DNA of 64,000 nucleotides. Source: Malania oleifera. Its lineage: Eukaryota > Streptophyta > Magnoliopsida > Santalales > Ximeniaceae. The stretch covers positions 551,501-615,500 of the forward strand of contig NC_080424.1 of assembly GCF_029873635.1 (NCBI RefSeq), in the 5' to 3' direction. The translations under genes were made by a program, and so were the position numbers. Below the pieces are notes generated by a model. The model searched no databases and had not been told where the DNA came from. It saw only the letters and a program-made list of their open reading frames with translations. The stretch's first letter is position 1. The number at the start of each line of letters is the position of its first letter. This document shows positions 29,021 to 52,814 of this stretch, in pieces.

Positions 29021-32000
29021 CTACAATAGATATTGGAAGATATAAAATAGTAGAATTAAAACATGTAGTTTTTCATCAGGAGTATGAAGCTACTTCAGGA
29101 AAATAGATGTAGAAAGAGGCATGTGCATTCGCCAACCTTTTTACTACTACAACTACAGCAATCCTTTTAAAATTTCACAACTGTAGTACTCCTCAGACCA
29201 ATATATGACTGTTAAAAGTGACGAACACTACAATAAACTAGATAAACATGAAATCTTTTGAATACTGGTAATTAAATTTGAAACACTATGGTGTATCTGC
29301 TTCTCTCAAAAGAATCCAATTTACAAACAGGTAAATGAGAAAATTTTGATGCAAAACAGAAAATGAAAATGGAAAGATGTTGTTTCATCTCTCATGGCAC
29401 CCATGCAAGTACTCGCTAGATTTCATGTTTTTGCCAATTTTGCACCAATATAGTGCCTAATCAACCATTCACAAAAAAGCCTTCTTTGCCATTTTAACAT
29501 GTTAGTCTAAAAAATTTTACAATATATGAATTGACACAGTTAATATGAATTCAAAATTCACAAGAAACAGGGACTCACTTTTGAACAGCTTCCTTGGCTT
29601 CAGCTGCACCAGCCTGCTCTTTCACCAGTTGAGGCACTGGTTTGCCTGCAGTTTGAGCTGCCACCTCTGCAGCAAAATCCTGGCTTTTCTTCTCCAGACC
29701 TTCTCCAAGATTGTACCGCACAAACCTCTTCACTTTTATATTTTCCCCTATGGTTGCAATCATCTTCTTGACCCAGTCCTTTACCACCACCTTATCATTC
29801 TTAATGTAGGGCTGTTCAAGCAATGCCAGCTCTTCAAGCCCCTTCCTGATCCGCCCTTCAACAATCTTCAATCTGATCTGCTCTGGTTTTGACAAGAGAT
29901 CTTCCTTCTGCATTTCAATCTCTTTTTCTTTGTTTACAAGCTCTTCAGGAACATCTTCGGTAGCAAGATACTGAACTAGAGGGCATGCAGCCACTTGCAT
30001 GGCAAGATCATCAACCAGTTCCTTAAAGATGTCACCTCGAGAGACAAAATCTGTCTCACAGTTCACTTCTATCAGGACCCCTATCCTACAATCATGAATG
30101 TACGAACCTATTCTACCTTCAGCTGTGGCTCTACCCGCTTTCTTATCTGCACTTGCTAAACCTTTTTTCCTGAGGAACTCCTGAGCTTTAACAATATCAC
30201 CTCCAGTTTCTGAGAGAGCCTTTTTGCAATCCATCATTCCTGCTCCTGTTTCTTCACGCAAATGCTTCACTAAAGCTGGTGATATAGTTGCTGAATTTTA
30301 TCCACAAGTTGAAATAAGTAGAGGAAGGAACACATCTCCATAAGAAACTGGCATTCTTATGTGAAACAGATGCAGACCAAAGTAATCAAAAAGTTTAAAG
30401 TGTGATGGTATCCTGACTGAAAATATCAGAGTAGGATTTAAACAGTTGTGGATCAGAGTACACAAGAAAATCATAACATTAGAACTTTTTGGCCAAGCCA
30501 TAATGGTTATTTTTTTTTTCAAGTAACAAAAACTTCATTAATGCAAGAAATAACTAAAAAATTCACATGAAAAAGAGGACAAGTCATCCTCCTTCGCAGC
30601 AAAAACAAAAGGAAAAGCAAATACCCTCAAAAACCCCCAAAAGAATCAGCCCAAACTGTAGCCATAATGAAGCTTTCTCCCAAATCAAATTCTCTGGAGC
30701 CTTCTAATCTCTGAATATCCTGGCATTCCTTTCAAGCCAAAGAGTTGACAATATAGAAAAAACAAAACAAAACCACCATTTCTCTCTCTTCCTTCTGAAG
30801 ACCAAAAACTGTACCACCGTGAAATCTTAACTGATCTTTCAAACTACCCAATCCTCACCACTGTAGGAAAAAAAATTATACCATAGTGCCCTTGCCACCT
30901 CACAATTAATCTCACTTTCCTTGCCATGCATCAAGCAGACGTCACTGAGAGCCTTATGAGGCCTCCTAATCTGAAGCAAGTCACTTGTGTTAACCCTGTT
31001 GAGAACCAAAGTCCATATGAAAGCTAAAATCTTAAAAGGAACAGCAACCTTCCACACTATATTCAAATGAAAGGACTGGGATAGACTTTGAAGAGAATGA
31101 ACCCGAATAGTCCCCAGTCCAAAGCCTACTACCCCCCAGGTTTTGGGAATTAATGAAAATTCAAACGCTCAACAGGAAAGTGAGCTCTTCTATCTCTCTC
31201 ATTGGGACTCCTAGAAAAAATGGAAGTCCCAAGACACAAGAACCCTCTCAGAAGAATATAATTCAGAAATAGGAGCATCATGCACAGATAAACGTCCACA
31301 CAATCGAGGCACAAGGTATTCCAACGAAGCCACGCCCACCCAAATATCTTCCCAAGAGTGAACCCTATCCCCAACACCAACAGAAAAACAAATGAAAGGA
31401 AAGAAAAGACCAGAAACCTAAGAGACAAATTTCCAAGGGCATGCAAGAGAACCAATTCCAACCCCCCTTGGTATCCCACCAATTCCTATGAATACCTACT
31501 TAGTACTTACTCTTTATTACTTTGTGCCATAAGGAACCACACTCTAAGGGGAATCTCCATAACCATTTGCCTATTAAAGAAATGTTTTTAGAAACCAAAC
31601 TATCGCTGAACAGACCTCCCTCAGACTTTGGTCTACTAACAGCCTCCCAATTAAGATTATCCCTCTTATACTCCCCAATATCAGACCATAAAAAATCTCT
31701 CATAAGCTTCTCTAAACTCCCAGCGACTTTCACGCAAATTTTAAAAAGAGAGAGACAATAAATATGAACATTGAAAAGACAAGCACCAATGAGAGTAATT
31801 ATACCACCCAAGGAAATATAAGCCCTCTTCAACCCTTCCAGTCTTCCGACCCTCTCAAGCACTGGATCACAAAAGGCAGTGAACAACAGACAACCCCAAG
31901 AGGAAGGCCAAGATACAAAATGGACCAAGACAACAAATTGCACCCCACAAGAGATATAAAACCCTCCCAACTCCCTATTGCTCAGATTAATACCAGCCAA

Positions 32001-35000
32001 ACCACTATTAACCAAATTAATTTTCAGTCCTGAAATCTTCTCAAAAACTTCTAGCAGTGCAAGTACCTTGCAAAATTTCTCAGCACTATTCTCTGAAAGG
32101 AAAATTAGCATCGTCGGAAAATTGCAAGTGAGACACTCTCACCTCATCCCTAACAACCTCCAAATCCCTAATCACACCATAATCCTGAGCACGCAACACC
32201 AGTCTACTCAAACCATCCAAAACTAACGTGAACAAGAACAAAGATAACAAATCCCTTGTCTTAACCCCCTGGACATCTCAAACCACTCCCTAGGCTTACC
32301 ATTAATAATCACAAAAAAGTTGACCGAACTAAGACAACCTCTGATCCATTTATGCCATAAAAACCCAAAGCCCTTCTTAACTGTCACCCAATCCAATAAT
32401 CCCCAATTAACCATATTGTAAGCTTTCTCAAAATCTATTTTTAAAAAATTGCCTTGTTTACCTTTCCTTTTAGCATCCTCTACCACTTTAGCTACCAAAA
32501 TTGCGTCTAGAATTTGTCTCTGTAACAAATGCAGATAGGGCTAATGAAATAGTATCCCCAACACCTCTTTAAGTCTCCTCGGCAAGACTTTAGTAAGAAT
32601 ATTATAGATGCTAGTGACTAAGTTAATTGGTAAAAAATCTCTCACATTCCTCAACCTCTCGTTTTTGGGAATGAGTGCAATAAAAGAGGAATTAATGCTA
32701 TTACACACTATACACCATTTTTATGAAATCCCCTAAAAATATTTATATTTTTTAAAAAAAAGAAAAAAAAAAAAAAACTCATTACATCATCCATCAAAGC
32801 ATCCCAACAATCCTAGGAAAAAGCCAATGTAAAACTATCCAAACCTAGAGCTTTATTCATATCCATGCCCATCATTGCCTTCCTTATCTCTTCCATTTCA
32901 AACAACCTCTAAAGCCAAATAGTAGACTCTTCCCCAATAGGTTCCTAATCAAGCCCCTCCACCATCAACCCATCCCCACAATTCTCAGAGTAAGGGGATT
33001 TTAAATTAGTAATCCCTTTATCTTGACTAATCCTTCACCATCATACCTGATTCCAATTCCAATTCTTTAATCAAACACTACCTTCTCCTCCCATTAGCAA
33101 CTCTATGGAACAATCTAGAATTACAATCCCCATCCTTAGCCCAATGAACCCTAAATTTCTGACGCCAACTTCTTTCTTCTCAGAACAAAAGCAATTCCAA
33201 CTCACTAGACAAATGAGTCCTCCTTTCCCTCTCTTCCTAGCCCGATAAACCACACTCCTATAATCCGTATAAACACTTTAAAGTATTCAAAATGTTATCC
33301 CCAATATTCCTTAAAATCTCTTTGTTCCACACCTTAAGCCTATCTTTAGCAAAATTCAGCTTCTTCATCAACCTAAAACCTGCCCACCCCAAAACTTAGC
33401 ACTCCTTCCACCATTCCCGAATTCTTTCTCGAATAGACAAATGAGACAACCACATATTCTCAAATCTAAAGGGAATGGGTCCATATTGATGGCATTAAAG
33501 TCCAAGAGAATAGGGCTACAATCGGAGGTAGGTTTGACCAGCACCTCTTGTACAATGATTGGAAACAATTCTTCCTAAACATTTGTAAAGAGGAATTTAT
33601 AGATGCATGAGCTAGCTCTATTCCCCAAGTCCACCAAAGTAAGACTGCCATTATTTAAGGGAACATCTCTAAGGCAGCAATCACAAATAAAATTATTGAA
33701 TCTTCACATCCCATTATTCACCTAAAACTCCCATCCTCTCCGTCATATTATGAACAACATTAAAATCACCCCCCACACCCCCGTGGGTTACAAAGACCAA
33801 ACAAAATACCCAACTCTTCAAGAAAACCATTACACTAAAAAGAAATACAAGGGCCATACGCAAAAGTAAATCACTAGATTCACCACCACCCCCCCCCCCC
33901 AACTCCCTTAATATCTAATAAAATAGATAGGGAAAAAGAACTAAGTAAATAGTCCTATAACAAACAAACTTTGGTGTCCCATGCCACTAATTGAACACCT
34001 TAAGGCCTCAGACAAAGGGAAAACCAACCAACCTTGACTTCAAATCCCAAATACTCCTAAAAAGTTGGGGGCTAATGTCCTCTAATTTGGTTTCTTGGAG
34101 AAATAAAATATCGAGGACAATTCTATTAGCCAAATCTCTAACAACCCTCCTTTTTCCCAACCCCCCTCAACTACTAACATTCCATGAAAGGATCATTTAG
34201 CACCCTTCCCCCTTTATCATGGTTAACTGAAGACCCTAATCTACCCAATTACCCAACCAATTTTTTGTTTTTTCTTCTCTCCTAGCCCCCTCCAAACAAA
34301 TACTAAACTCCTCCCTACCCAAACACACCAACTTAAGACCTAAATCATTCAGAAATACCTAGGTGCCCTTGTGATATCTCTCACCCCCAAAAATGCTTAT
34401 AGTACCGGGCATCCCCCTAACCACTAGTTCTTTATGATATAAAGATAATTCAAAATCAATCTCAATAGACCCAAGAATGGAAGGTTTACCATTAGGTGTG
34501 CCATTGTATTCCTATTTCGCTCTAGAAAGATTTTGAGGTTATTGGCAAAGCTAAATGGCTAGAGAAAAACTCGAATAAGTTGGGAGAAACATTTTTCCTC
34601 TAGATAAGTTGTTACCCTTTAGAATCAAAGCCACATCTGAGCTCTAAGCTCCCTAAACAAAATTTGTCCAAGGCTTTTTAGATTGTGGAGGCCTAGTAAT
34701 ATCACTCCAACTCTTTCCCAATCTCAATGCCTCCTCCCCCCCCCCCCCTACTTCCTTGCTATTTTCTCCCCCACCTACTCTTCAAAGACTCTCAATAAGT
34801 AACTCCTCATAATCAGGGGAAGAAAACGAAATTTCTTCTTCTTCTTCAAACACCATTGGACTTTCAATGTGATTGTCCCAAAGCATTACCTCCTTACCTT
34901 TCCTCCTTACACTCGCTTCTTCATCCTCCATCTTCCTCTACACACGATTATAGATATCCTCTAGCCTTCTCAAAGTTCGCGCCTGAATCCCTTCGCCATG

Positions 35001-38000
35001 GTCCTCACTCACTCCCCTTGAAGCTTCTTTAAGCATCGTTTTATGCTTTCCTTCTTCTCTGTTAGCATTATTGATATCCTATATTTGCACATTGGAAGGC
35101 TTCCTGTTTGTATTTCTTTGAGCCTAGAAAAATCTGCTTCTTGGGGAAGAGAGCTCTTGGTTATTTAAGAATCCCCAAGCCCAAAACCCATGAAACTCTA
35201 TCTCCATCTGGGCTGAAATTTTATTTTTCTATTTGGGCTTCCTTTAGGCTTGTGTTATTAAGCCCATTTTTAAGAGCTTGACTATAAGTAACCTTGGCTA
35301 GAATGGGCTTTTGATTTCCTCCTTGCAGCCCCTTTTGTCTAAACCTTTGCATCCATATCTTCCTATCCCCTCCACATCCATAATTGCTCCCCCCGCCCCC
35401 CAAAATCTCTCACCATGAATGCACTAAGAATTCGCTGACTATCCTCCCTAAAAATTACAAAATTCAAAATCATTCCTTCTCTGTTGAGAACTCCTTGAAT
35501 ATCCTCCCTAAAAATTTTGAAATTCAAAATCTTTCCCTCTTTAGAAAAAATTCCCCGAAATCCTCCCCTAAGATTCTAAAATTCAAAATCTTTCATTCTT
35601 TGCTAAGAATTCCCTAAATTTTTTCCCTGAAAATTCTAAAACTCAAATTCTTTCCTTATCCAATCATCTGCATTCCAGCTTCCCCTCTTCTGGCAAAGCC
35701 TAAGCATGCCTAACTCCATGGCTAATTTCAAGCACTGCCTAAACACAACTTAAACCAGACAAAAGACTTGATTGATAAGGGGTGTTTGTCCCCTGTCCCT
35801 AAGCCTATCCCTAATACGGTGGAAATTGATGATATTCCTTCAGTTAGTGACTCAATGCCCCTCCTGCACCTAGGCAGGGGGTGTTTACGAATGAAAAGGT
35901 GGCTATCTCCATGATTGGTCAATTTTCCTAAATCTAGAAAAAGTAACTTCCCCTTCTTGTTCAATCCATTTTTTCTTTTGACACTAGCCATAAGGAGGGC
36001 TCTATTGGGGGTAGCGCTTTCTAGTGTTGGCTTGGGGGGGGGGGGTAGTGAGAGAGACTTTTTAGATCCAAAAAAGCTTTTTGAGCAATTGGGTTTAAAT
36101 TAGTTAGTCCTCTTAAGATTTGACTAAAATGAATGACCTAACTTGAATATAGGTCTCTCCCACTATTTACAATACAAAGTAAATACATTCTCATGACAAT
36201 AATACCCTTACTAACTCTCACTAATTAACATACTAACACATTTAATAACAATAATACTAAAAGACATAAATAACCTCTTAACACCTCCTCTCAAGCTGAA
36301 GCATAAATGTCATATGCTCCTAGCGTTTTACAAATAAATTTAACACGAGCACCCCTCAACGCTTAGGTAAACAAATCAGCAAGTTGCATATCCGACTTCA
36401 CATAAGCGGTAGTAATGAGCTTCTACACAAGTTTCTCTCAAACAAAGTGGCAATCAACTTCAATGTGCTTCATCCACTCATGAAAGACCAGGTTGGAGAC
36501 TTGGAGGCAATATGAAGAGCAGCTTGATTGTCACATATCAACTTCATAGGCTGAGAATGAGAAATACACAATTCTTTCAAAATGTTATTCAACTAGACAA
36601 GTTCACAAGCAATGTGAGCCATAGCTCTATATTCTTATTCAACACTTGACCTTGCCACCACAGTTTGTTTCTTACTCTTCCAAGAAACCAAATTACCACC
36701 AACTAAAATACAGTACCCGATTGTGGATCTCCGGTAGGAAGGCGACCTAGCCCAATTTGCATTTTGAATTTTTATATCCATGGATATAAGTTGATGATGA
36801 AGAAATATTGGAGGAATATTGGAGACAAAGTTAAACTTGATGATGAAGAAATAAATAGCACTTGTAGATTTCGATACCTTGGATCTATTATGCAAGCTGA
36901 AGGAGAAATTGAAGATGATGTAATGCATAGAGTTAAAGCAGGTTGGGTAAAGTGGAGAAGTTCTTCAAGTGTTCTATGTGATCGTAGAATACCCTTAAAA
37001 TTGAAAGGGAAGTTTTATAGGACAGCTATAAGACCAGCTATGCTATATGGATTAGAATGTTGGGCGACGAAAAAACATAATATCCAAAAAGTAAAAGTTG
37101 TCGAGATGAGGATGCTTAGATGGATGAGTGGTATAACATTGAAAGATAAATTAAGGAATGAACATATTCGTGGTAAGTTAGGTGTAGCTCTTATAGAAGA
37201 TAAGATAAGGGAAGGACGACTCAGATGGTATGGACACTTGCAACATAGGCCTTATAGTGCACCTGTGAGGAAGAGTGACTTAGTTACTGTGGGGGGCTGT
37301 AGAAGGGGTAGGGGTAGACCTAAAATAACTTGCGAGGAGATAGTGAGTAAGGATTTAATATCTTTGAATCTATCAAATGAAATGGTCCATGATCGCATAA
37401 ATTGGCGAAAAAGGATTCATATAGCTGACCCCACTTAGTGGGACTAAGGCTTGGTTTTGTTGTTGTTGTTGTTGTTTATGGATATAAGTGTGACTCTAAT
37501 AACGATATAAAAGATGTCCCCTAAGTGCATCTTTGAGATATCTCAAGATGCAAATTACTGCATCCCAATGACTTGTTCTCGGAGAATCTAAAATTGACTC
37601 ATAATGCTTGTTGCAAAAGATATATCCGGCCAAGTGACTGTGAGATAATTCAACTTTCAACAAGTCTCTGGTATTGTCCAGGATTAGGTAGCAAATCACC
37701 TATATCCGGCACTAACTTGCTGTTAGAATTCATAGGTGTATCAATTGGTTTAGATCCCAACAATCCAGTTTCATCCAACAGATCAAGAATATACTTCCTC
37801 AGTGACAAAACAGTTCCCATATGAGATCTAGATACTTCTATACCCAAGAAGAATTTCAACAGTCCCAAATCTTTGGTCTAAAACTTACTATGTAGAAAAA
37901 GTTTGAGACTCTGAATACCTTTATCATCATCACCTATAATAACAATATCATCCACATAAACAACAAGAAGGATCCTCCCGATGAAGTATGACAATAAAAC

Positions 38001-41000
38001 ATGGAATGATCCACAGCATACCGTCAAAGACCAAACTCAAGTACCACAGCACTTAAACAACCAAACCATGCTCTGGGAGACTATTTTAAGCATATAGAGT
38101 CTTCTTAAGCCGACACACTAAGCCAGACCCCCCCCCCCCCGGGGGAGCAACAAACCCAGTTGATTGCTCTATATAAACCTCCACCTCAAGGTCGCTATGC
38201 AAGAATGCATTTTTCACATCTAACTGATGTAGAGGCCAGTGACAGGAACAGCCAAGGAGATGAACAAGCATACTGATGTAAGTTTGACAACAGGAGAAAA
38301 AGTATCATAAATATTCAAACTATGCACCTGAGTGTATCCCTTAGCAACAAGACAGGCCTTTAGATGAGCCACAAAACCATCAAGGTTGACTTTCACTGTA
38401 TAAATCCAGCGACAACCAACCACAGACTTGTCAAGAGGAAGAGGTACCAAGTCTCAAGTACCATTGTCATGTAAAGCATTCGTCTCTTCAACCATAGCAT
38501 CCCTCCACGCAGAATAGGCTAAGGCTTCCGAGACAATTTTAGGAAGGGTAATTGATGATAAATTGGTAATAAAACAATAATAGGGGGGTGATAAGGAGTC
38601 ATAACAAACACAGTTGGAAATGGGTTGTTGAGTACATGTGCATTTACCTTTCCGAACAGCAATAGGAGGACCAACATCATGGAGAGTATGATCATTAGAC
38701 GAGGAAACTAAAGGCGTGATAGTAGAAGCTAGAGGGGACTCTCTTCCTTGGTGCTGCCGTCGTGAATACACCTACAAATTAGGATGATCAAGACAATGAG
38801 AAGGACTCAAACTACATGGAGACATAGATGGTTGCTTGGGCAAGGACAGAAAAGTAGAATCTCAAAGGTTAGGCAAAGGAAGAGACTCATTGAGCTCAGA
38901 TGCACTCAGTGATTGGGTGTAGTAAGGTGTAGACTCAAATAAAAGTAACATCGGCAAAAACAAAGAAGCGATGCAGCATAGTACTATAACAACAATATCC
39001 CTTTTGAGTATATAAGTAACCTAGAGAGACACGTTTTATAGCATGAGGATTCAAATTATCTACCCCAGGTGTTAGTTGATGAACAAGAGACACACACCCA
39101 AATATACAAAGGAAAAGAGAAAATAAAGGTGAATTAGGAAAGAGAATGAAGTTGGGAATTTTACCACTAAGAAGATAGGATGGCATTACGTTGATTAGAT
39201 AACAAGCAGTAAGTACAACATGACTCCAAAACACTTTAGGTACATGCATTTGATAAAGGTGCGAGTGGTCTCAAGAGGTCTATGTTTACTCTCTGCAGCC
39301 CCATTTTGTTGAGGAGTGCGAGTGCAAGATGATTGATGAACAATACCAAACCGAGTCATATAAGTAGTGAATTGTGCACTGAAATACTCTTTAGAATTAT
39401 CACTTTGAAGTATTTGAACTGGCAAACCAAATTGGGACTTTATTTCAGAACAAAAGGCACAAAATACATGAAATAACTCAGAACAATCCTTTATTAAGTA
39501 TAACCAAGTCATTCTTGAATAATCATCCACAAAGGTTACAAAGTACCGAAAACCCAACTTGAACACAACCCTACTACGACCCCAAACACCAAAATGAACT
39601 AACATAAAAGGGCTTGCAGCCTATTTATTAACTCAGGAAGTGAAAGGAACACGATGGTGTTTTCCCAACTGACAAGACTCACCAGTGAGACTAGACACAA
39701 AACTCAAACTAGGAACAAGACATTTTAACTTTTCCAACGAAGGATGACCAAGGCAACAATGAATTTGGAAAAGTGTGGCATCAACAATGCAAGCGGTAGA
39801 AGGAGATAGCAACTCAAAGTGATAGAGTCCACCAGCTTTACACCCTCCACCAATCATCTTCCTCATCTTCAAATCCTAAATAATCACAGAATCAGGGAAG
39901 AATGTCACTGAACAATTCATGGATTTAGTAATTTTTCTAACAGACATAAGATTGAAAGAAAATTTGGGAATATATAAAAACCAAAAGAAGAGAAATAGAA
40001 GAGGTGGGATTTACAGACCCAGTAAATCCCCAATACCCTTGACTACAGTGGTGGATCCATCAACAAAAGTAACACATGGTAAATTTGCAAGATATTGAAG
40101 AGTAGAGAAGAATAGGTATACCTGTGATATGATTAGTGGTAACAAATCTATGACCCAAGGACTAGGACAAGAAGTATTAGTTGACAGGCATACTGTGGGA
40201 TTACCTGTTTGCGCAAGAGATGGAATGGGAAGAGAAGCTTTTTGTGATGCTTGATACTGTTTGAACTTGAAATACTCTTCCTCTGACATGGATACAATAT
40301 GTTGCCCCCCACTCAGCCCCAAAGGTGAGGAGTCGATGGTGACTGCATTGGCTGCCCCCAAAGGTGTGAATTCGGTAGCTGTATTGGCACCATGTGAAGG
40401 TCTACCGTGAAGATCCCAACATTACTCAACAGTATGATTACTCTGTCCACAATGAGTGCACTTGCGAGGAGTACCTCTACCACTACAACCACTCTAACTA
40501 GCTCAATAACTTTTGCAATTGTGTCGTAGAGAACTAGAATCACTTTGTGTTGCAAAGTTGTCCTCTCAAAGCCAGATGCAAAAAAATGCGTGCTAAAGGA
40601 AGCACAAAGGACACAACAATAAACATTGGAAAATGATGGCATCTCGGCACTATTAAGTATCTGAGACCAGACTGCCTCAAACTTGGGTCTCAAGCCTACT
40701 AGAACAAAGAACTATCATCTGCTCCCCCTGCTTCTGCATCTTATGAACGTTGGCAATTATAGGTTGCATGACATTAAGTTCCTCATGAATACACTTCATC
40801 TTTCCAAAATAAATTGGTTAATTGACAAAAATTCATGTACTTGATGTCCCGCCCACGAAAGAGACCAAAGTCCTAGTAGCCCTTCTAATAGTATCTCCTT
40901 GTTGTAACTAAAAGTACTCCTAGGATAAATTATACATACATGTAATGTTACTAGAGTATAGAAGTTTGACATAATCTCAAATCTCCTTGGACGTTTCTAG

Positions 41001-44000
41001 ATGCGTGCATACACATCCGTGCAATATATGGCTCCATCCAATTCCATAAGAGGGAAACAATCAAGGCATTTTCTGGAAGACACACGTCTTTTCTCTTCTC
41101 ATCAGAAGGATCAGATTGGGACAAGTGGTCAAATTTTCCGAATCGTGCTAAATAAACTCGAACAACTTTAAACCATTGAACGTAGTTCTTTCCATCCAAC
41201 TTTTAAGTCATTATTTGTAGCAGCGATGTAGGAAACAAATTTTTAGGATTCATAGATTCCATCCCAACACTCACAAATCAACAACCACACCAATGTCAAA
41301 CAAGAAGAACAAGCAAAACTAATCGAGCAATCGCAAACTATGTGAAGCACCGACATGACCATGAACGAGGTGAACAACTCACAAACAGATATAGCACTGC
41401 CATAGCCTCACAATGGAACATACAAATGCTGCCACTGCTCCAAAAAAAATCACAAAGAAGCCTTCCCAAACCTTGAACAGAGATTAACAGAATACCACGA
41501 GTGCATAGTCAAAAAAAGTTGAATTTTTAAGCAAAAAACAGGCCTAACAGCTTGATAACATTGTCTATAGAAGGAATCAGAACATGACAGAGGAAAAAAG
41601 AAGAAAAAGGTGGCCAGAAATTCAATCACGGGCCGGCATGCGGGGTTGGCTCTACTGGTATTTGGCCGGCACATGCGTGGGGGCTCCTCCGGCGATGGGA
41701 TTTTGTGGGGTTAGGCTTCGGGAAGTTCTGTTTATGGGTGTATGGTTGGTTTTGTGAAATATGTGGGGTGGAGGTGGATCTGCGAAGGACAGCCACGAGA
41801 ATGGTGTTTTCCAGCGACAGGTGAGGGGGATAGGGTTTAGGTTGGATCACACTTTGATACCAAGTTAAGATTTGATTAAAATCGATGACCTAACTTGAAG
41901 ATAGATCTCTCCCTCTATTTATAATACAAATTAAGTACATTCTAATGACAATAATACCCTTACTAACTCTCACTCACACTTATAATAATAATGCAAAAAA
42001 GACATAATTTACCTCTAACAAGTCCCATTGGGGCCAAGGTGAAATTGGCATTGAGAAGGACCTAGGTCCCATAGGGGTCGAGGTTAAATTGGCATTAAGT
42101 CCTAGAATATATGATCATAAAAAGAAAAAGGTTCAAAAAAAATCTAAAGAACCTAGTCTCTTCTATCAATTATGGGGGAGGGGAGGGAGTTGGGAAGGGA
42201 GGGAAATGAGAAATTATGAAGATTGTCTATTGGAATGTTAGAGTCCTAGGGGACTTTAAAAAGAGAGGGTTAATTAGGGATGTTTACTTAGATATTCTCC
42301 TAAGACTGTTTTGATTCTAGAGACTAAGTTGAGCACATTGACAGGGGGGTTGTTTAGAGGGATATGGGAAGGTCATTGTAAGGATTAGGCCTTTGTGCCT
42401 TCTTGGGGGTCAGCAGGTGGTCTTATGGTATTGCAGGACACCTACTCAATTCTAAAGTGGATAGTCTAATAGGCTTTTTCTCTCTATCTATCCTGGTAGA
42501 AGTGAAAGGCCAAGGCCAATGGTGGGTGTCGTCGGCATATGGTCCTTCTAAACCAGCCCATAGGAGTTCTTTTGTGGATCTATTATGTATTTGGCTTTTG
42601 CACTCCTAACTGGATAGTGAGTGGTGATTTTAATGCTGCGAGGTTTCCTCGATTTCCTTGACAGAAGAAGGGGCGAGATAGGGTTATTGCTACTATGCGG
42701 CGTTTTGGTTTGTTTTCTAGGGACTGTGTTGTAAGAGGTCTTCCCCTAGATAATGCTAATTTTACATGTTCAAAGGAAGGAGATAGCAGTGGCAAGCAAG
42801 CTTGGCATATTTTTGTTTTGGACGGAATGGGAGGATGAGTTCCCTAATCTCTTCCATTATGTTTTACCTAGGACTCCTTCTAACCACTTTCCTATCATGT
42901 TAGAATCAAGGAAGATTTCTTGGGGTCCCACTCCTTTTAAGGTTGAAAATATGCGGTATCATGATTTCTTCTAGTCCTTGGTGAGGGATTCTTGGAATGA
43001 GGATGTCAAGAGGGATTGGAAAGGGTTTAGATTCAGGAAGATATCGAAGAGGTTAAAAGAGAAGTTGAAAGAATGGAAAATGGAGGTGCTCAGAGATTTA
43101 AGGTTTAGAAAGGCTAGCATTTTAGGAGAGTTGGATGAATTAGATAGGAAGGAAGAAGATGCCATTATCTCAGGGAAGGAAGAGATGAAAAGGGTATCTT
43201 TGAAGAACAAATTGTAGGAGGTGATTTTCAAGGAAATGAGAAGTTGGGGGCAAAGACGAAGTTTAAATGGCTCAAAGACGGTGATTGTGATTCTAGATTT
43301 TTCTATAGGATGGCTAATGGAAATTAAGGTAGAATCTGATAAGGGAGTTGGACATGGGCAGGGGGGGTATTTTTTTTAAGGGGGGAGGAGGAGAAATTCA
43401 TTAGATAGAGTAAGAATGTACAATCAAGAAGAGACATATCCTTAACGAAATCTAGTAAATCCCAGAGAGAGGGGAAAAAAAAAAAAAAACCAAAAGTGTA
43501 AAGAACAGCACAAGGAAACTAGCACACACTAAGAAGTCAACAAAGAATAACAATTGCGTTGAATATCTAAGTACATTCCCTTGAAGTTTCCATTACCCAC
43601 ACACCATAGAGAAGCCAGAAATGGATCTTCTCCCACATCAACAAAAATGATAACTTCTTCTCTAAAAATATACATGAGTACGTTCCTTCCACAAACCCCA
43701 AAATAGTACAAATAAAGCACAATTCCATAGTGCTTTTCCTTCTTTCTTCCTACCAAATCCAACAAAAGATATTGCCAAAAACTCCTCCAATGTCCCTAGA
43801 CAGATCTAAATTTCTCCAAAATAATTGAATAAGTTATTTCAAACCTTCCATGTGAAATCACAAAGCAAGAAAAGATGTGGAGCAGATTCTAAGCTGTTAG
43901 GCTTTTAGGTAAAGTGGTAATCTAACATGGTATCAAAACCAGGTTCAATCCTAGGACCTATGGTTTATAGGCCCACAAGCAAAGCACGCATATATTTGGA

Positions 44001-47000
44001 GAGAGAGCCTTTAAAGGCCTCCTAATCTATTGCAAATTATTAGTGTTTATCCTATTAAGCACAACCAACCATAGAAAAGCCTTGATTTCAGGGGGGATTT
44101 TGACCTTCCAAATAGTTTTGTAAAGTAGAAAGGGAAAATTGGTGCAACCAAGAGTTCCCAAAAGGATTTGCAAGAATAAACCCCTAAGGGATCCAACAAC
44201 CAGGATCAACTATCAACTTCCAAGGATACCTGATAATTATTCAACAAGATCAACAATGAAGATAACTCATTTGTTTTCCTATCATTCAACGATCTCCTAA
44301 AATGAATATTCTAAGAAGGTAAAGGACCACTTGGATCTGCACTAAAAGAGGAAATGGGATCATTCTATCCTAAGCTCAAACGAAATAGGTGAGGAAAAGA
44401 GGTGGAAAAAGCAACATTCCCCAACCAAAGGTCTTTCCAAAAACGGATATTACACCCCTTACCCAACACAAATTTAGTATGGGGAATAAAGAGAGGGTAA
44501 ATCTAGGAAATAGCTTTCCACGGACTTTCGAAAGAAAAACTAGAACCCAATTTAGTATCCCACCCATTCCCATCAAGTCCAAACTTGCTTTTAATAACTT
44601 TATGCTACAAGAAAGAATGCTAGAAGGAACCACCAAACCCATCTTCTTAGGCACCAAATTTCAAGACCAAAACCGCCCTTTTGTTTGGACCTACAAACCA
44701 CCTCCCATCTCACCAAATGGTGACTAAAACCCCCTACCCCTGACTAGAGAAAATCTCTCATAATTCTCTCAATTTTACTAGCAAATCCTGCTGGAATTTG
44801 GAAAATTGAAAGAAAATACAACCGGATACTAGAAAAACAAGCCTGAATTAGAGTAACCCTGCCTCCCAAAGAAAAAAAAGCTCCCTTCCACCCATCTAGA
44901 CTCTCTCAATCGCCTAATCTTAAAAACTAACTATTCTAGGATTACCCCCCAAAGGAACCCTTAGCTAGGACAACACACACTCCAACTTAGCGCGCCCTAC
45001 CTCGAAAGATAACACCCTAACATGCTCAGAAGGCATGTTAATCGCCACAATACGAATCTTCCCTATATTAATCTTAATCCCCAAAATAATTTCAATTATG
45101 TAGAGAAACCCCAATATATTCCCCAAAAAAATTAAAAAAATAAATAAATAAAGGCCTATGATCGTCCAAGAAAATATAGTATCATCAACAAACTGAAGGT
45201 GCAAAACTATAATTTCCTCCCTCCCCACTCCCAAACTTTTCACTAAACCTCTCTCCACCGCCCTATCATCATCCTACTTTATAAAAACGGGGAAAGAGGA
45301 TCCCCTTTCTAACTCCCCCTAGTGGCCCTAAACCAAGTTTAGGCTCACCATTCACTATCACCGAGTAGTATACGTTAAGCATACAGTCTTTCATCCATCT
45401 TCGCCATCTCTCACCAAACCCCTTACTCATAAAATCTTATCCAAAAAGTTCCAATTCACTCTATCATAAGCCTTCCAAAATCCAGCTTAAAAATGAACCC
45501 CTTCTTCTTCCTCCTCCTAACGTCCTCAACAACTTCATTTGCAATCAAAATGGCATCCACTTGTCTCCTTACTCCCCCCACCCCAAAAAAAAAAAACAAA
45601 ACAAAAGCACTTTGGGCCTTAGAAATAGTCTTATCAAGCACCACAATAAATCTATTAGCTGGTACTTTAGCAATTATTTTATAAACACTGGATACTAGAC
45701 TAATGGGCATATAATCAAAAATCTTAATGGACCTACTTTTCTTCAGCACCAAAGTAATAAAGGTAAAATTAATACTCTTAATGTTCCATTCCCATAAAAT
45801 TCATTGAAAACCTTCATCAAGTCATTCTTAATTATCAGCCAACAATCTTGATAAAAAGGTAAATTAAAACCATCCAGCCTAAGAGCTTTATCCCTCTCCA
45901 TCCCAGCACTGTAGACCTAACTTCCTCTTCCCCAAAAGGTCTCTCTAACCAAGCTATCTTGTCAACAAACAAAGGATCCCACTCCAGCCATTCCACCATT
46001 GGTCTACTCTCATCCTCCTCAAAAAACAAGTTGTAACAAAAATCATTGATCTCAAACGCAATCCAACTAGTATCCAAGATAATAACCCCCGCCAATCCCC
46101 TCCAACTCCCTAATCAAATTTTTTCTCATCCCACTAACTATCCTATGAAAAATTTAGAATTACAATCATCATTGCTTACCCATTAAAACTGTCTTCTGTC
46201 TCCAACTTCTCATTTCCTTAAATATCAGCTTTTCCAATTTGTTCTTCAATGATACCCTTCTTGCCTACTCCTCCCTTAAAAGAGTAGTAGTTTCTTCCTT
46301 TCTATCTATCTTTTCCAATTCGCACCTTCCTCAATTCCAAAAAAACAAGAAAATGATTGAAGGTGGGTCTAGGTAGCATGACTTGGAAAGATTAGGAAAC
46401 CCCTCCTTCACTCGTTGATAAACAAGAAATTATCAATTCTACCAGCCACCTCCGCTCCGCCAACTGATCACATAAAATTAGCATTTCCTAAAAGAAGATC
46501 CCTCAAACCACACTTCCTAATAACCAAAATAAACTTCTACATAGTTGCAGTAACCCTACCACCCCCCCTCTTCTCTCGAGGGAATCGCATACATTAAAAT
46601 CACCCCGCATAATCCACTTAGGTGACCAAAAGCCAAAGATAAAATAGAACGCATCCCAAAAATAACCCCTAAAATCAGATCTTGAAGGACCATAAAAAGA
46701 GGAAACCCAACAATGACCCCTATCTCTAGCTTCTAGTAGGACAGAGAGAGAAAGAGGGAGAGATAGAGAGGGAGAGAGAGAGAGGGAAAAAAAAAACACC
46801 ACTAGACTATCCAATCTGGCAATAGAACAAGTATCCCACAACTTGAGGATGTTGTCCTATTTAGAGGTTCCTTTGGGGTTAGCCCTAGATCTATTAGTTT
46901 TTGGGATCTTACTGTGGAAAGGGTTTCTAAGCGATTAGATAGGTGGAAAGGTGCTTTTTATTATTTTGGTGGTAGAATTACTCTCGTTCAAGCTTGTCTT

Positions 47001-50000
47001 TCTAGTATCCCATTATACTTTCTTTCTATTTTCAAGATTCCTGTGGGGTTGCTAGCTGGATTGAGAAAATAATGAGGGATTTATTATGGTTGGGGGTAGG
47101 GGACTTTAGGGATCATTTGGTAAGATGGGAAGTGGCGTGCGAGTCTAAACAAGAGGGTGGTTTGGATCTTAAAAATTTGATCTCTAAAGAAACAAGTCTC
47201 CCAGCTAAATGGGTTAGGCAGTTTCTGCTAGAGAATTATTCCCTGTGACAAAGAGTTGTAAAAAGTAAGTACGGATTAGATGAGAATGGGTAGGATACTA
47301 ATTTTGGATTTAGATGTTCTTTGAAGAGTCCATCGAAAGCTATCTCTCAAATTTTCCCTTTTCATTCCTCGTGTTAAATTCTTGTTGGGTAGGAGGGTAA
47401 TATCCGCTTTCAGAAAGATCCTTGGTTGAGCAATGTAGTTTTGTCCACCTTTTTACCTCGGCTCTTTTGCTTGAGCTTAAGGTAGGACAGCTCTATTTCT
47501 TTTTTTTATTATTGATCTTCGTGGACCTTTACCTTCATGTTATTTTCATTTTCAAAGATCACTAAATGATAGGAAGTCAATAGAGTTATCTTCTTTGCTA
47601 TTCTTGTTGAATAACTATTGGTTTTCCTTGAAGGAGGATAGTTGGTCATGGTCATGGATCATTGAGGGGTTTATTCTTACAAATCTTTTTGTGAATTTCT
47701 AACTAGATCTAAGTCCTTTTTCCTCCCTATAAATCTATATGGAAGGCCAATCCGCTCTAAAATCAAGGCTTTTATTTGATTGGTTGCACTTAATAGAATT
47801 AATACCAATAACTTGTTGCAGGTCAGGAGACCTTTGAAGGCTTTCTCTCCAGATGTTTGTCTACTTTGTTTTAACTGTTTGAAATCTGCATCACATCTTT
47901 TTATTCATTGTGATTATGCTCAGTGGGTACGGAATAAGTAATTTGGTTTTAGGCAAATGTTGGGTGAGTTCAGAGGCAGTGGAGGACTTTTTGACAGTTT
48001 CTTTTGTCAGTTTTGGCAGGAAAAAGGAAAGGGCAATGCTCTGGAAATGTGCTTCTTTGCAGCATTTTGGGAGCTGTGGGTGGAGTGTAATGCGAATATC
48101 GTTTTAGGGAAGAAATTGTCATATTTTCTGGTTTGGGAGAAGATACATTATTTGGCTTCTCTTTGGTGTGTTGGTCATGGGAATTTTAAGGGATGAGTTT
48201 TTCAGATATTCATGAGTGGCTTTATTTGTTGGATTGTTAGTTTGCGCTAATTTTATTTGTTATTTTTAGCTTCGGCTTTTTCTATGTCTTTCATCTGGAT
48301 TTTTTCTGATTTTTCTAAGGAGATGTCTTATTGTCCTGGTTGTACATTCTTAATCTATTAATGAAATCCTTCTTTTGCTATCTGAAAAAAAAACATTCAT
48401 GGAGCCATAATACATGCTTTGATGAGGCACCCTCGATTTTTCTAAAGAAATTATACCAACCTTTAGCCTCCTTCCCTTCCGAAATACAAATAGCTTGAAT
48501 AATGCCACTGTATGGAATTTTCTCTAGAGATAATAAAACATCCCAAAATTATTGGCCCTCAATCGAACCACGAGAAAATTTTTGGGTGTTCTGAGAGTCC
48601 TGACCCAACGATCAATAGTCTTTCAGAAGAGAAAGGATTTTGGTTCTTCGACAATCCAATTTCTCTCCTCCAAAGGTAGATGCTGCCAGAACACTCATCT
48701 TATGCTCTTCTCAATAATCTTGAATGAGTCTGCATCCTCAATGATAGCAAAGTTTCTTGCTGTGCCAATGATCAAAGAGAGCTTGGATTACAAGAGAAAA
48801 AAACAAAAGCACTCTAATTTTAAAAAAAAAAAAAATGAAAGGCTCTCTATTATGGCATAAATAGAGAGGTAATGGAAAAACACAAAGAAAAAATTTTGGG
48901 TGTTGGTAAAAAGAAACAAATGGTTTAAACTAAGAATTACAACAGAACAAGAAGGAAAAGCAAAATAGAAAGGCTTGTACTTCTTTATTTTTTTTATACC
49001 CAGCAGATTCACTTGTTGTTTGTAGTTGAGTGGCATCCCCTAGCTGCCCCTTAAATGAAACTTTCTTTGCTAATTAAGAAAAAATGATCAAGTTAACTTC
49101 ATCAGATATAAAACCACTAGATGTAAATTCATCAAATATATAATCTGATCACAATTCTTAATACCTACTATTGTATCAAATTCAATAATCCAAAATAATG
49201 TGTGGCTTAGGCATACATAACATTTACTTCACGTTTCCTACATAGAAATGGAATGGAATTGAATATTTCACTTGATTTCATCATTTCACTCATTCAAATT
49301 TTCATTCCATTCCTTCCCTACCCCATTCCATTCTGCAAACCAAACATGCCATTAAAAGAATGTTAGAACTTCGAAATGTACCAATAACCTCTTCAACCTT
49401 GGCTGCTAAACTGGCTGAAGAGAGTACCACAGACATACTGATCAAGCTCTTTGGAAATTGATTCCAGTAAGGAAATTTTTTCAGCACAAATTAATTTTTT
49501 ACTTATGGCAAAGTTGTCTGTACAAACTAATTTTTTTATTTATGAGACTGGAAAAGATATAAAAAGGTATGGAATTTTTTTTACACTAAATAAAGACAAG
49601 AAAAAGAGAAACTGGAAAGAAGAAAATACCTACAAATTTTGAAAATAATTTCAAAGGAATGGGAATGAAATGGGATGCTTGGCCAATGGGAATGGGAATG
49701 AGTTACTGTGGAAAAAACCAATGACCCGGTATACTCGGATTGGAATTCCGATGGTGAAGATGGGAATGGTAATCCAGGTGCGAGGAATAGAATTTTATCA
49801 TCTACAAAGACAAAAGTGAACAAAAACACCCTAGATGTCCTAATGATTTCAATTCCACTATAAAGACCAAATGCATGAAAGAGAATGAATCATTCACGTT
49901 CCTAAAGCCTTAGGAATGGGAATGATTAGATAGGGATTCCTATCTGGCTTATTCTCATTCCATGTTCCAAACAAGGCCTATAGGAGCATAGAGGCCCCCA

Positions 50001-52814
50001 AAAAAAATTCTAAGGTTAAAGCTCCTTTCATAGCTAGAGTTAACAGAGATGCTTTTGATTAATTTAGAAGGCAACTATTTGAAGTTGTGCTCCATCCTCC
50101 ATTCAATTCTTCTATTTTCATGATCTAGATTTTAAGCAATTGACAGCATCTCATTTTTAGGATGGTGATAACCACTTATCACAAATTTGTTCAAGATATC
50201 TTCTTATTCCTACTCCATCCCCTCAAAAATAATAATAATATTAATAATAATAAATTTTAAAAGAAAATAAATTGATAAAACAATGACAATTCACATTGCA
50301 TGTCTACAACTACCATATCTGCCATGATCATGCATTATATAATATGATTTTCCCAATCCTTCTAGGCATATGTCATGATACTACCAGTTCTGATACTTAA
50401 CTTCTGGTTCAGTCATATTATCCAAATAATTGCAGAAATTATGCATGTTGAAATTCATGGTTGGCATGCCAGGCATGGATTTTATGAAAATTTTCAAGAA
50501 TAGGAAAAATAATAAGTGCATCCACAAGAGAATACGTGTAAGACCTCTAGTCATGTTTTCCTTTGGAGAAAAAAAACCAGTTTGTCCATTAGATTTGGAA
50601 TGACTGTAATTTTTCTCAGGCTCAGGTCCTGCCTTTTCATCTTCAACCGGTGTAGCTGAAGGAATATCGATATCTGCAACAGGTTTTTGTATCTGCACTT
50701 CATCTTTGGCCATACTATCATCTGCTTGATTCTCTACAGTTTCTTTGCCGACCTGATGTTCCAACAGACCACGTTGATCATCAGCGACTTCTCCAGATGG
50801 ATCTACTTTTCCATCATATTCCAATTGCCCTGCATATATAAGTACACAGTTTAAAACATAAATGAAACTAATCTTTCCCCAATATTTCAAAATTGACAAA
50901 ATTAAAATGACTCTGGAGTTTACTCTCTAGTTATATTTTCTCATTCATTATTGTGCAGATACTGCCTCAGGTTCAAGCTGCCATTTTTCACATGGAGTTG
51001 ATACCAAAATTTCCCAAATGATGATTATATGAACACAAGAAGAAAAGCCAAGGGAGCAATAGTGAACCTTCATTCATGCTAACATCAATTTGTCCATTTG
51101 AGCTGCTGATACTGCGATGTTCCTCAATGATTGGTGCTACCTTTTGATCGTCAACATCTGCAGCAGCAACAATTTGATTCTTTGCACTAGCAGTTTGTAT
51201 CTGCACTTCATCTTTTGCTATGGTATCATCAGCTTGACTGCCTATAACTTTGCTAACCATACTTTCTGAAGACAAGATATTATCAGTTATTTCTCCTTCT
51301 AATCTTGAATCTTCGATGTTTTCCACCTCATCTGTGATAGAATCCTCTGTAATTATTTTTTTTGCATTATCAGAATCCAAATTTTCATAATTATTCTCCA
51401 TTTCATCTGTAGTTTGAACGATGCAATCAGAATTTTGTGATGAACTTGACACCATGCTACCAGACTTTTCATCATTTTTCACTGACACAGTTGAGGCACC
51501 GTCTACAGTATTGGTTCCTCCATCCACTTCCTGCAATGAATCTTCCTCTTCTACCAACTCATCCACAGCAGAAGGGACATTGACCAATTCTTCATTGATG
51601 CCAGCTGGCTGCTCCTGAACTTTGAGGATAGCAGACCCGGTTGTCTTTTGATTTACAGTTTCATCTCTCTCCTCTGAATTTTTTGGTGACTCCTTAATTT
51701 CAGTGGAATCCATCACTTTCTCCCTCTCCTCCAAAAATGCAGCAATATCTTTATTTTTACGGAAAGCCAGCATGAAGGGGTTCGTGGCAACATGGACAAC
51801 CCCCTGAACAATCTGCGAGTCCAACCCTTCAGTATCTTTTCTCTTCATTGTCAGTGTCACTTGTCCTCTTGTGATGCGTAACACCTGCACACTAACTTTT
51901 TGGCCAACTTGCAGAGAGGAGCCCCCCATAATGTTGACAAACCCTTCATCAGATTCTTCTGACAAGGGTAGAAATCCTTCCTCTCCCTCAGGAAGAGATA
52001 TAAAAGCACCAGATCTAATTAAATTTTTCACAATGCCCTCTAGGTCCTGCCCTTTAACAAACTTTGAGCTTTTCTTCATTGAAGTGCTTTTTCTGGTGGG
52101 CCTGGTGTTATCACTGCTAGCAGGAGCATCTTTAGGTTGCTGTATCTTACTAATATCATCATTTTCACGCATAGAAAGAGAAATCCGTCCTGTCTCAGTG
52201 TTTGCTTCCACTAATCTCACCGTCACCTGTTGTCCAACAGAAACCACACTTCCAACATCCTTAACAAAGCTATCACTTAGCCTCGAAACATGCACCAGAC
52301 CATCTGTGAAAGCTCCAAAATCAACAAAAGCACCAAATGGCTGTATTGACCTTACTTTCCCAGTAAAAGTTGCACCAGGCACCAGTTCTTCATTCTTCAC
52401 AGGCGGCATTTCACTCTTCCTGCTAGGCTTTGAACGTTTGGGTTGTACTGCACTGGCATCTAATTTGATTGATGAATCTTCACTGGCTTTAACTGCAGTG
52501 GACGGAATTTCTGAGATTCTGTCAGAATCATTATCTGCAATTGGGGAGTCAGGTTCCTCTACTGCTACATCAGTCCCTGTGGCTGATAATATATAGATCC
52601 TCGATTTACGATGTAAAACACATCCACTTGTGTATGGTTGAAATAATCTTACAGATGTTGACAGAGGCAAACTAAACTTTTGTGAGGATAATGTATGTTT
52701 CGAGAACTTCCTCAAAAAATTGCACCTTGTTAAATAATTGCTCCTCCTTAATGTAAAACTAGTACCAGGAATTAGTGAAACATTGGTGACTGAACATGGA
52801 ATTACAGGTGCCAT
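28405..52814 (-). CDS. PETs: Plastid polyprotein of EF-Ts (S1-S1-EF-Ts-EF-Ts), 1119 aa, 4 coding exons
   Basis: Coding exons: 52814-51068, 50829-50545, 30290-29579, 29020-28405. All borders are GT-AG and phases join exactly (3360 nt). It corresponds to the chloroplast EF-Ts polyprotein of plants and green algae (Arabidopsis At4g29060; PETs in Chlamydomonas), which supplies the nucleotide-exchange factor for plastid EF-Tu and an S1-domain ribosome-associated part. Domain order: transit peptide (about 1-75), S1 (145-217), S1 (255-325), long acidic linker (to about 677), first UBA/EF-Ts module (680-885), short linker, second module (about 925-1119). Both modules keep [13 protein letters not shown] and CETDFV. 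Intron 3 spans 50544-30291 (20,254 bp) and is full of retrotransposons; introns 2 and 4 are 238 and 558 bp. All coding sequence is intact. Confidence 0.95.
29579..30290 (-). CDS. PETs: PETs third coding exon: first EF-Ts module
   Basis: 712 nt, acceptor ATTCAG|CA, donor CAAAA|GTGAGT. It encodes the N-terminal UBA-like helix pair ([19 protein letters not shown]), the CETDFV signature that contacts EF-Tu in bacterial EF-Ts, and a complete core ending in [15 protein letters not shown]. An Ala/Gln/Pro-rich spacer follows. Confidence 0.95.
30510..35420 (-). mobile_element. LINE 1: L1-like non-LTR retrotransposon, degenerate
   Basis: Minus-strand order from 35.4 kb down: a Gly-rich ORF1-like region (35403-35221, YSQALKNGL), endonuclease (33902-33714, with [15 protein letters not shown]), RT (32528-32223, [18 protein letters not shown] and SRGLRQG), RT C-terminus (32111-31500, [11 protein letters not shown] and RDFLWSD), and a zinc-finger-type RT-associated end (31066-30839, [20 protein letters not shown]). 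It ends in TTAATGAAGTTTTTGTTACTTG plus an A-tail, seen as T10 at 30510-30519. Stops and frameshifts are many. The 5' limit is uncertain. Confidence 0.85.
31500..32528 (-). pseudogene. LINE 1 reverse transcriptase
   Basis: Two minus-strand blocks. 32528-32223 has [31 protein letters not shown] and [13 protein letters not shown]. 32111-31500 has [39 protein letters not shown] and [13 protein letters not shown]. The YADD box between them is lost to frame breaks around 32.2 kb. Confidence 0.85.
35426..35661. repeat. Four-unit 60-bp tandem repeat
   Basis: The word ATTCAAAATC (ACTCAAATTC in the last unit) recurs at 35462, 35522, 35581 and 35641, that is every 59-60 bp, with CCTCCCTAAAAATT and AATTCC blocks at the same spacing. 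It lies between the minus-strand ORF1-like start of LINE 1 and the plus-strand LINE 2 remnant, so it may be part of a LINE 5' region. The unit of about 20 codons is open in places on the minus strand. Confidence 0.75.
35670..36110 (+). mobile_element. LINE 2, 5' remnant (plus strand)
   Basis: This sequence continues at 42021 after removal of the Copia element and one AGTCC. The plus-strand ORF (35915-36103) has no firm motif. I assign it to LINE 2 because of the exact Copia insertion, not because of protein similarity. The true 5' end is unknown. Confidence 0.45.
36111..36283 (-). repeat. 3' LTR of inner Copia
   Basis: Shares GATTTGA.TAAAAT, ATGACCTAACTTGAA.ATAG, TCTCTCCC and ACAATAATACCCTTACTAACTC with 41864-42020. 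Starts TGTTAAGAGG on the minus strand. Confidence 0.85.
36635..36790 (-). pseudogene. Inner Copia RNase H, distal part
   Basis: Minus-strand reading shows [19 protein letters not shown] and [19 protein letters not shown], the Copia RNase H (relatives: DADWAGSPSDRRSTTGYC). It is separated from its upstream part (37496 onward) by the RTE insertion. Confidence 0.85.
36791..37477 (+). mobile_element. RTE-type non-LTR retrotransposon, 5'-truncated, with 11-bp TSD
   Basis: A plus-strand ORF (36764-37438; element-derived from 36791) encodes the RT C-terminal region of plant RTE-like elements: [41 protein letters not shown] and [13 protein letters not shown]. It ends with CCACTTAGTGGGACTAAGGC and a (TTG)n tail (37452-37476), the usual end of this family. 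ATGGATATAAG flanks it at 36780-36790 and 37478-37488. The ORF has no stop over 216 codons, so the insertion looks recent. It lacks the RT core, so it is dead on arrival. Confidence 0.9.
37496..38450 (-). pseudogene. Inner Copia reverse transcriptase
   Basis: Minus-strand blocks: [20 protein letters not shown] and LVAKGYTQ (38450-38220), [20 protein letters not shown] (38271-38086), VVYVDDIVI near 37.95 kb, [14 protein letters not shown] (37868-37650) and [14 protein letters not shown] (37699-37496). A run of C and G at 38130-38145 adds Pro/Gly codons. Frames shift between blocks. Confidence 0.85.
38935..39872 (-). pseudogene. Inner Copia GAG-pre-integrase and integrase
   Basis: 39872-39633 has [15 protein letters not shown]. 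39605-39195 has [35 protein letters not shown] and [16 protein letters not shown], so the D, D and E positions can be read. 39249-38935 continues with [18 protein letters not shown] and a GCVSLVH block. An internal stop separates the blocks. Confidence 0.88.
40011..41199 (-). pseudogene. Inner Copia gag and protease
   Basis: 41199-40951 begins [20 protein letters not shown], the gag start of plant Copia. 40693-40313 and 40361-40011 overlap in different frames; the latter has [14 protein letters not shown] where WVIDSGATDHIS is expected, so the protease aspartate context is lost by frameshift. Confidence 0.75.
41852..41862 (-). other. Primer binding site of inner Copia
   Basis: TGGTATCAAAG on the minus strand next to the 5' LTR, one change from the usual TGGTATCAGAG. 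Confidence 0.8.
41864..42020 (-). repeat. 5' LTR of inner Copia
   Basis: 157 bp, homologous to 36111-36283. It starts TGTTAGAGGT on the minus strand and is followed outward by the AGTCC target duplication. Confidence 0.85.
42021..43360 (+). mobile_element. LINE 2, endonuclease and start of RT region (plus strand)
   Basis: Plus-strand translation gives the endonuclease blocks [30 protein letters not shown] and NFTCSKEGD (42.49-42.79 kb), then a Lys/Glu-rich linker (42978-43217) and [19 protein letters not shown] (about 43.26-43.33 kb), which in L1-like elements precedes the RT core. It breaks off at about 43.36 kb, where LINE 3 begins on the other strand. Confidence 0.8.
43370..46845 (-). mobile_element. 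LINE 3, L1-like, inserted within LINE 2 (minus strand)
   Basis: Its A-tail shows as T8 at 43370-43377 beside the 3' end (GTACATTCTTACTCTATCTA ATG). Minus-strand order: endonuclease (46841-46503, [19 protein letters not shown] and [14 protein letters not shown]), RT N-terminal region (46095-45835), RT (45752-45456, [19 protein letters not shown]), LQFVDDTIF (45258-44965), RT C-terminus, and the zinc-finger-type end (44209-44027, [20 protein letters not shown]). It is 5'-truncated inside the endonuclease. A (GA)n run (46745-46790) interrupts the endonuclease frame. Inactive. Confidence 0.85.
46846..48393 (+). mobile_element. LINE 2, 3' part: RT C-terminus and zinc-finger-type end (plus strand)
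   Basis: Plus-strand text: [40 protein letters not shown], a DLLWLG block with [16 protein letters not shown], then [13 protein letters not shown] and [14 protein letters not shown] (47910-48196). It ends with TAATGAAATCC and an A9 tail (48385-48393). The RT core expected between 43.33 and 46.85 kb is missing, so LINE 2 lost about 1 kb as well as being interrupted. Confidence 0.8.
48400..48860 (-). pseudogene. LINE-associated ORF1-like fragment
   Basis: The minus strand reads, with one frame shift, [29 protein letters not shown] and upstream [22 protein letters not shown]. The pattern ([12 protein letters not shown] plus a short helix) resembles the protein that accompanies plant L1-like elements. 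Borders and assignment are uncertain. Confidence 0.4.
49255..49985. repeat. GGAATG-rich repeats, MITE-like ends
   Basis: Two GGAATG/CATTCC-rich stretches (49255-49346 and about 49640-49981). Each ends on its high side with ACCAAACATGCC or CCAAACAAGGCC, a form common at ends of plant hAT/PIF-type miniature elements. No target duplication was found, so the class is open. Confidence 0.4.
50545..50829 (-). CDS. PETs: PETs second coding exon: linker, repeats the end of the first exon
   Basis: A 285-nt exon (residues 583-678), acceptor TATGCAG|GG, donor AGAG|GTCTTA. Its [18 protein letters not shown] and SKSNGQTG parallel [18 protein letters not shown] and SSSNGQID near the end of the preceding exon, so it looks like a duplicated exon segment. 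Joining to 30290 gives [18 protein letters not shown], in phase. Without splicing the frame runs on through a hydrophobic stretch ([15 protein letters not shown]) to a stop at 50381. Confidence 0.9.
51068..52814 (-). CDS. PETs: PETs first coding exon: transit peptide, two S1 domains, acidic linker
   Basis: It encodes residues 1-582 plus one nt. The start [17 protein letters not shown], a Ser/Thr/Arg-rich leader and the junction [17 protein letters not shown] fit a plastid transit peptide and mature N-terminus. S1 domain 1 has [20 protein letters not shown] and RISLSMR; S1 domain 2 has [20 protein letters not shown] and QVTLTMK. The rest is Glu/Asp/Ser-rich and probably disordered. The donor site GAAG|GTTCAC is at 51067; reading through it adds about 26 codons including [11 protein letters not shown] before a stop. 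Confidence 0.95.

Follow-up and report, generated by a model that had tools for sequence, protein, structure and literature searches.

The window analysed here, the whole 64,000-nucleotide stretch of Malania oleifera DNA, carries on its minus strand four coding exons that together encode an intact plastid EF-Ts polyprotein (PETs) of 1,119 amino acids. Exon A (51068..52814, aa 1-582) contributes the start codon, a presumed transit peptide, two S1 domains, and the first part of an acidic linker, and exon B (50545..50829, about aa 583-677) the second part of this linker. The first EF-Ts module (EF-Ts_N and EF_TS) is encoded by exon C (29579..30290), and the second module together with the stop codon by exon D (28405..29020). 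All three coding introns have GT-AG borders, and their phases are, in order, 1, 1, and 2. Intron 1 (50830..51067; 238 bp, phase 1) lies within the linker at a position matched in other sources, and intron 3 (29021..29578; 558 bp, phase 2) separates the two EF-Ts modules. Compared to these, intron 2 (30291..50544; phase 1), situated where the linker gives way to EF-Ts module 1, is very long, with 20,254 bp.

Once joined, the exons read as 1,119 codons and a stop codon without an internal stop. Pfam identifies S1, EF-Ts_N, and EF_TS in two stretches each (best stretches: S1 146-216, EF-Ts_N 683-720, and EF_TS 735-874), so that two S1 domains at the N-terminus are followed, in a single frame, by two EF-Ts modules at the C-terminus, the arrangement that makes a PETs. 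Intron 2 falls after aa 677, so that the S1 half is encoded upstream and the EF-Ts half downstream of it. The joined protein is letter-for-letter identical to the NCBI model “polyprotein of EF-Ts, chloroplastic [Malania oleifera]” (P0002), which was made independently and rules out a chance join of the exons; this model may be based in part on protein similarity. Plastid targeting is presumed from the word “chloroplastic” in the NCBI name. The first-pass annotation had stated that the exon ends at 50545 and 30290 join in phase, that all PETs exons are intact, and that the intron measures 20,254 bp; its coordinates, phase, and length all proved correct, and the phase-1 join yields the NCBI protein.

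A five-codon upstream open frame (52853-52870, minus strand) is located shortly 5′ of the PETs start, if it lies within the mRNA. Downstream of PETs, at about 24200-25350 on the minus strand, exon-like stretches appear by eye to be alpha/beta-hydrolase-like. A search of the window against Rfam gave no match at gathering scores.

The PETs transcript of Chlamydomonas is said to undergo alternative splicing. As in Malania, Chlamydomonas PETs/PSRP-7 combines an S1 half and an EF-Ts half in one precursor, which is reportedly processed into PSRP-7 and EF-Ts, whereas no such processing was seen for Arabidopsis (work cited in PMC8343077 and PMC12156993). Arabidopsis EMB2726 (At4g29060) and rice OsAL7 are described as plastid proteins of similar length that share the two S1 and two EF-Ts domains of the Malania protein (PMC8343077, PMC12156993). 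OsAL7 has three exons and 1,123 aa (PMC12156993), whereas Malania PETs has four coding exons, with intron 1 splitting the linker, and a second intron of 20 kb. A division of OsAL7 into S1-plus-linker, EF-Ts 1, and EF-Ts 2 would fit its three exons.

Transposons and the size of intron 2

The extra length of intron 2 consists of transposons, namely a Copia element and LINE remnants, with part of the bases remaining without assignment. The Copia element (36113..42020, minus strand) has broken frames, and its coding pieces, an integrase (rve) and two RVT_2 matches of which one is below the curated Pfam cut-off, lie in separate frames between two LTRs. LTR alignment placed the 5′ LTR at 41865..42020 (156 bp) and the 3′ LTR at 36113..36283 (171 bp), both on the minus strand. 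The pair is identical at 139 of 155 ungapped positions, corresponding to a K2P (Kimura) distance of 0.111 and, with a rate of 1.3e-8 taken from PMC6377399, to an age of about 4.3 ± 1.0 My. This age is within the insertion peak of 2-10 My given in PMC6377399 for most clades in the Malania genome. A possible target-site duplication is given by two copies of GGACT, one immediately before the 5′ LTR and the other 2 nt beyond the point where the alignment of the 3′ LTR stops. The stretch that separates the reverse transcriptase of the Copia element from its 3′ LTR contains a putatively RTE-like open frame of 243 codons (36707..37438) on the opposite, plus strand.

A LINE remnant on the minus strand (30842..32540) consists of an RVT_1 piece (32226-32540, just below the curated cut-off) followed by a zf-RVT piece (30842-31168), both identified by Pfam. 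Further remnants, presumably LINE-like, comprise one on the minus strand (43370..46756) that lies between the two parts of another on the plus strand (42474..43352 and 46850..48392); pieces of these two parts are 68-75% and 69-71% identical, respectively, to the minus-strand remnant. No Pfam family matched the LINE-like remnants within 42474-48392. The description of the intron as nested LINE, Copia, and RTE DNA in the first-pass annotation is thus borne out for Copia and LINE by the Pfam pieces and the LTR pair, but not for RTE, as the open frame at 36707-37438 had no Pfam match, even at an E value of 5.

A PF00889 profile search of the 1.49-Gb assembly returned at least six matches, two in PETs and four in a single gene on C11. 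With this match count being a lower bound, PETs is the sole plastid EF-Ts gene found in the assembly. No intact short-intron duplicate was found elsewhere with PF00889. The C11 EF-Ts gene (C11:75518129-75568030, loci L007-L013), which is probably mitochondrial, spans about 50 kb. Its introns measure about 4.4, 30.9, 0.2, and 13.6 kb with exons set by eye on the DNA, and a tiny unseen exon is possible inside the 30.9-kb stretch. Published estimates put the repeat content of the Malania genome at 75% and 82%, the mean gene region at 11,809 bp compared to a transcript of 1,460 bp, and the number of exons at about 6 per gene (PMC10199050, PMC6377399). By arithmetic, these gene means imply a mean intron of some 2 kb. 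Overlap with Malania genes has been reported for about 1,500 Del elements, besides hundreds of other elements (PMC6377399). An intron of 20 kb is therefore large, yet in kind with its surroundings and, with the C11 gene as the one control, not special in Malania.

Intron position in other plants and S1-only proteins

In the Malania protein, the first EF-Ts module begins with an LVK motif, and the sites of introns 2 and 1 precede this motif by 6 and 101 residues, respectively. In a divergence-point test, each of 120 listed S1-half proteins (244-775 aa) was compared with its best partner among 119 listed PETs (P0002-P0120); the metagenome protein P0001, which lacks S1, did not serve as a partner. 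The match ends 0-6 residues before LVK, corresponding to the intron 2 site, in 11 of the 120 proteins and 84-111 residues before LVK, corresponding to the intron 1 region, in 28. Five proteins align beyond LVK, one of them, P0203, through a local match that is doubtful. The match ends elsewhere in the remaining 76, in many cases within a diverged linker, in which local alignments stop early. Two of the 11 proteins diverging at the intron 2 site carry species names, P0180 (Kingdonia uniflora) and P0219 (Rhamnella rubrinervis). Three of the 11 are weak or odd, with P0167 and P0235 matching at 45-46% only and P0219 running 178 residues further.

The clearest case is P0126, which is 95% identical to P0050: both share QKTK, after which P0126 continues with G and foreign sequence and P0050 with ATVSPALVK. 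The G at the divergence point of P0126 is explained by an exon that ends in G before GT and is read on, and the Malania read-through follows the same pattern (MTR-G vs. MTR-A). Judging from contig sizes and tails, we infer that many of the S1-half proteins come from other plants' DNA that was read as one frame without splicing. Read in this way, they mark intron positions and not S1-only mRNA. By these protein comparisons, intron 2 is at the same position as in relatives, and the G/A codon pattern suggests that its phase is the same as well. None of the three PETs coding introns interrupts a domain, and introns 1 and 2 both separate S1 from EF-Ts, so the idea that the border position is a striking coincidence was dismissed. 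The earlier statement that the intron splits the gene between its S1 and EF-Ts halves is correct, but the split is not striking, as the divergence points indicate an inherited site.

Besides P0001, six of the 120 PETs matches listed have EF-Ts without S1 in Pfam (P0031, P0037, P0047, P0086, P0089, and P0108, from Juglans, Citrus, Quercus suber, Rhizophora, and one unnamed source), and these are either partial models or downstream-start products. P0001, encoded on a JGI metagenome contig of 5,104 bp, is a 1,068-aa EF-Ts polyprotein of about four modules with near-unchanged repeats that lacks S1 and a start; its repeats reflect either a real tandem duplication or an assembly error.

The first-pass annotation had also suggested that intron 2 offers a transcript-level route to an S1-only plastid protein, a proposal for which we found no support. 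If Malania had an S1-only protein of 244-775 aa, it would be expected to head the 120 S1-half matches listed as a near-identical sequence, but none is among them, and the best match is 66% identical. Malania PETs is named by NCBI without an isoform tag and is the sole member of its cluster. If intron 2 were retained, the frame would continue for 54 further residues to a stop (50381..50544, minus strand), resulting in a hypothetical 731-aa S1-only protein. An S1-only reading, of 608 aa, would likewise follow if intron 1 were retained, and the 20-kb intron 2 is thus unnecessary for one. Intron 2 contains 16 AATAAA motifs, including those at 49540 and 48989, a number that may reflect chance.

Reports from other plants bear on what such a protein could do. 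In Arabidopsis, full-length PETs is reported as the major form, although the figure of “more than 80%” cited for proteins that carry two EF-Ts domains would allow for a minor form (PMC8343077). An EMB2726 allele without EF-Ts behaves as a null and S1-only is reported as lethal (PMC8343077), and rice plants with S1-only OsAL7 alleles are described as albino and die (PMC12156993). According to these reports, an S1-only product cannot replace PETs in these species, but it could add to the full-length protein.

In several species of Brassiceae and in cotton, S1-only PETs annotation models occur beside full-length ones. A tree of 39 hand-picked rows included 15 S1-only proteins (nine Brassiceae, three Gossypium, two Reevesia, and one Hibiscus), while the named Brassica models P0215, P0216, and P0237, which have other ends, and the unnamed Brassicaceae proteins P0206, P0209, P0214, P0220, and P0265 were left out. 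For P0221, P0222, P0223, P0225, P0227, P0234, and P0238 (Brassiceae), a full-length PETs is present in the same species. Six of the nine Brassiceae S1-only proteins have ETKNEEEVA as their end, a short way beyond the place in the linker that holds intron 1 in other plants; the Raphanus protein ends in ETKKEVA, and those of B. carinata and B. cretica end differently. At this place, the full-length proteins of Brassica rapa and Sinapis have ETKSEEEV and then continue, and that of Eruca has ETKNVEK. Eight of the nine Brassiceae S1-only rows form a group separate from the full-length proteins of Brassiceae (94/88, with an open fork), with B. carinata falling outside and the B. cretica row being long and unsure. 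The Brassiceae models look like a conserved truncated paralogue.

The Gossypium S1-only proteins P0173, P0231, and P0165 also cluster apart from full-length cotton PETs (100/100), and, by the names of the G. mustelinum models, A13 carries the S1-only form and A06 the full-length form. In Hibiscus, the S1-only row clusters with a full-length protein and could simply be an incomplete model. The S1-only label requires five changes on the tree, at least three of these changes being forced by strong branches, which makes more than one origin likely. Judged from protein models alone, those of Brassiceae and cotton have either lost the EF-Ts exons or reflect annotation gaps. One broad literature search gave no title or abstract on S1-only PETs copies among the 10 papers listed, which is weak evidence.

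Probable origin and possible consequences of the long intron

Taken together, intron 2 is very probably an ancient, inherited phase-1 intron of the only PETs gene found in Malania that was swollen to 20 kb by neutral transposon insertion. Several LINE-like copies, a Copia element of about 4 My, and an open frame landing inside this element would have enlarged the intron. The insertions would be neutral, with the whole unit transcribed and spliced into one full-length protein. The observation of the first-pass annotation is correct but ordinary, an old module-border intron fattened in a transposon-rich genome. That the exons surround such an intron by virtue of a misassembly, with transposon DNA drawn into a short intron, is extremely improbable. 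Nothing in favour of it was found, and the nested insertions, with a Copia element that has its own LTR pair and GGACT beside or near each LTR, are as expected for insertion in place. In addition, a long-read Malania assembly of nearly the same size, possibly the present one, has been described (PMC10199050).

In Arabidopsis, suppression was never observed for a T-DNA insertion in the GL2 intron, and according to the authors an intron of >20 kb, as produced by this insertion, may be beyond the capacity of the transcription or splicing machinery (PMC5364540). Such an intron length is accordingly not trivially harmless in every plant, and Malania might produce less full-length PETs, tolerating or compensating for the deficit. 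We regard such an impairment as very unlikely, given the intact PETs exons, the even longer intron of about 31 kb in the C11 gene of the same genome, and the many Del and other elements reported to overlap Malania genes (PMC6377399). Similarly doubtful is a regulatory role, in which heterochromatin in the intron, read by a complex of the IBM2/EDM2/AIPP1 type, would set the ratio of full-length to intron-ended S1-only mRNA. This mechanism is described for heterochromatin-bearing introns of Arabidopsis, such as that of IBM1 (PMC11265718, PMC5364540), and the open reading of 54 residues into a retained intron 2 and the AATAAA motifs at 49540 and 48989 would be compatible with it. As in Malania PETs, the coding exons of the IBM2/EDM2-controlled genes IBM1 and RPP7 flank a transposon-bearing intron; among the listed proteins, no short isoform of Malania PETs was seen. 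The missing isoform tag at NCBI, the possibly fortuitous nature of the 16 AATAAA motifs, and the null behaviour reported for EMB2726 and OsAL7 S1-only alleles (PMC8343077, PMC12156993) also argue against such a switch.

PETs, a gene reported as essential in Arabidopsis and rice (PMC8343077, PMC12156993), harbours in Malania a transposon-filled intron of 20 kb at an old module border. It is conceivable, though we give it little credence, that the conserved introns between S1 and EF-Ts form a recurrent break point at which S1-only plastid proteins arise repeatedly in flowering plants, through truncated copies of the gene in Brassiceae and cotton and perhaps through a transcript ending within intron 2 in Malania, with S1-only and full-length proteins coexisting in separate jobs. 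If an S1-only product were indeed made, this would bear on why plants keep the S1-EF-Ts fusion, although the alga reportedly cuts it.
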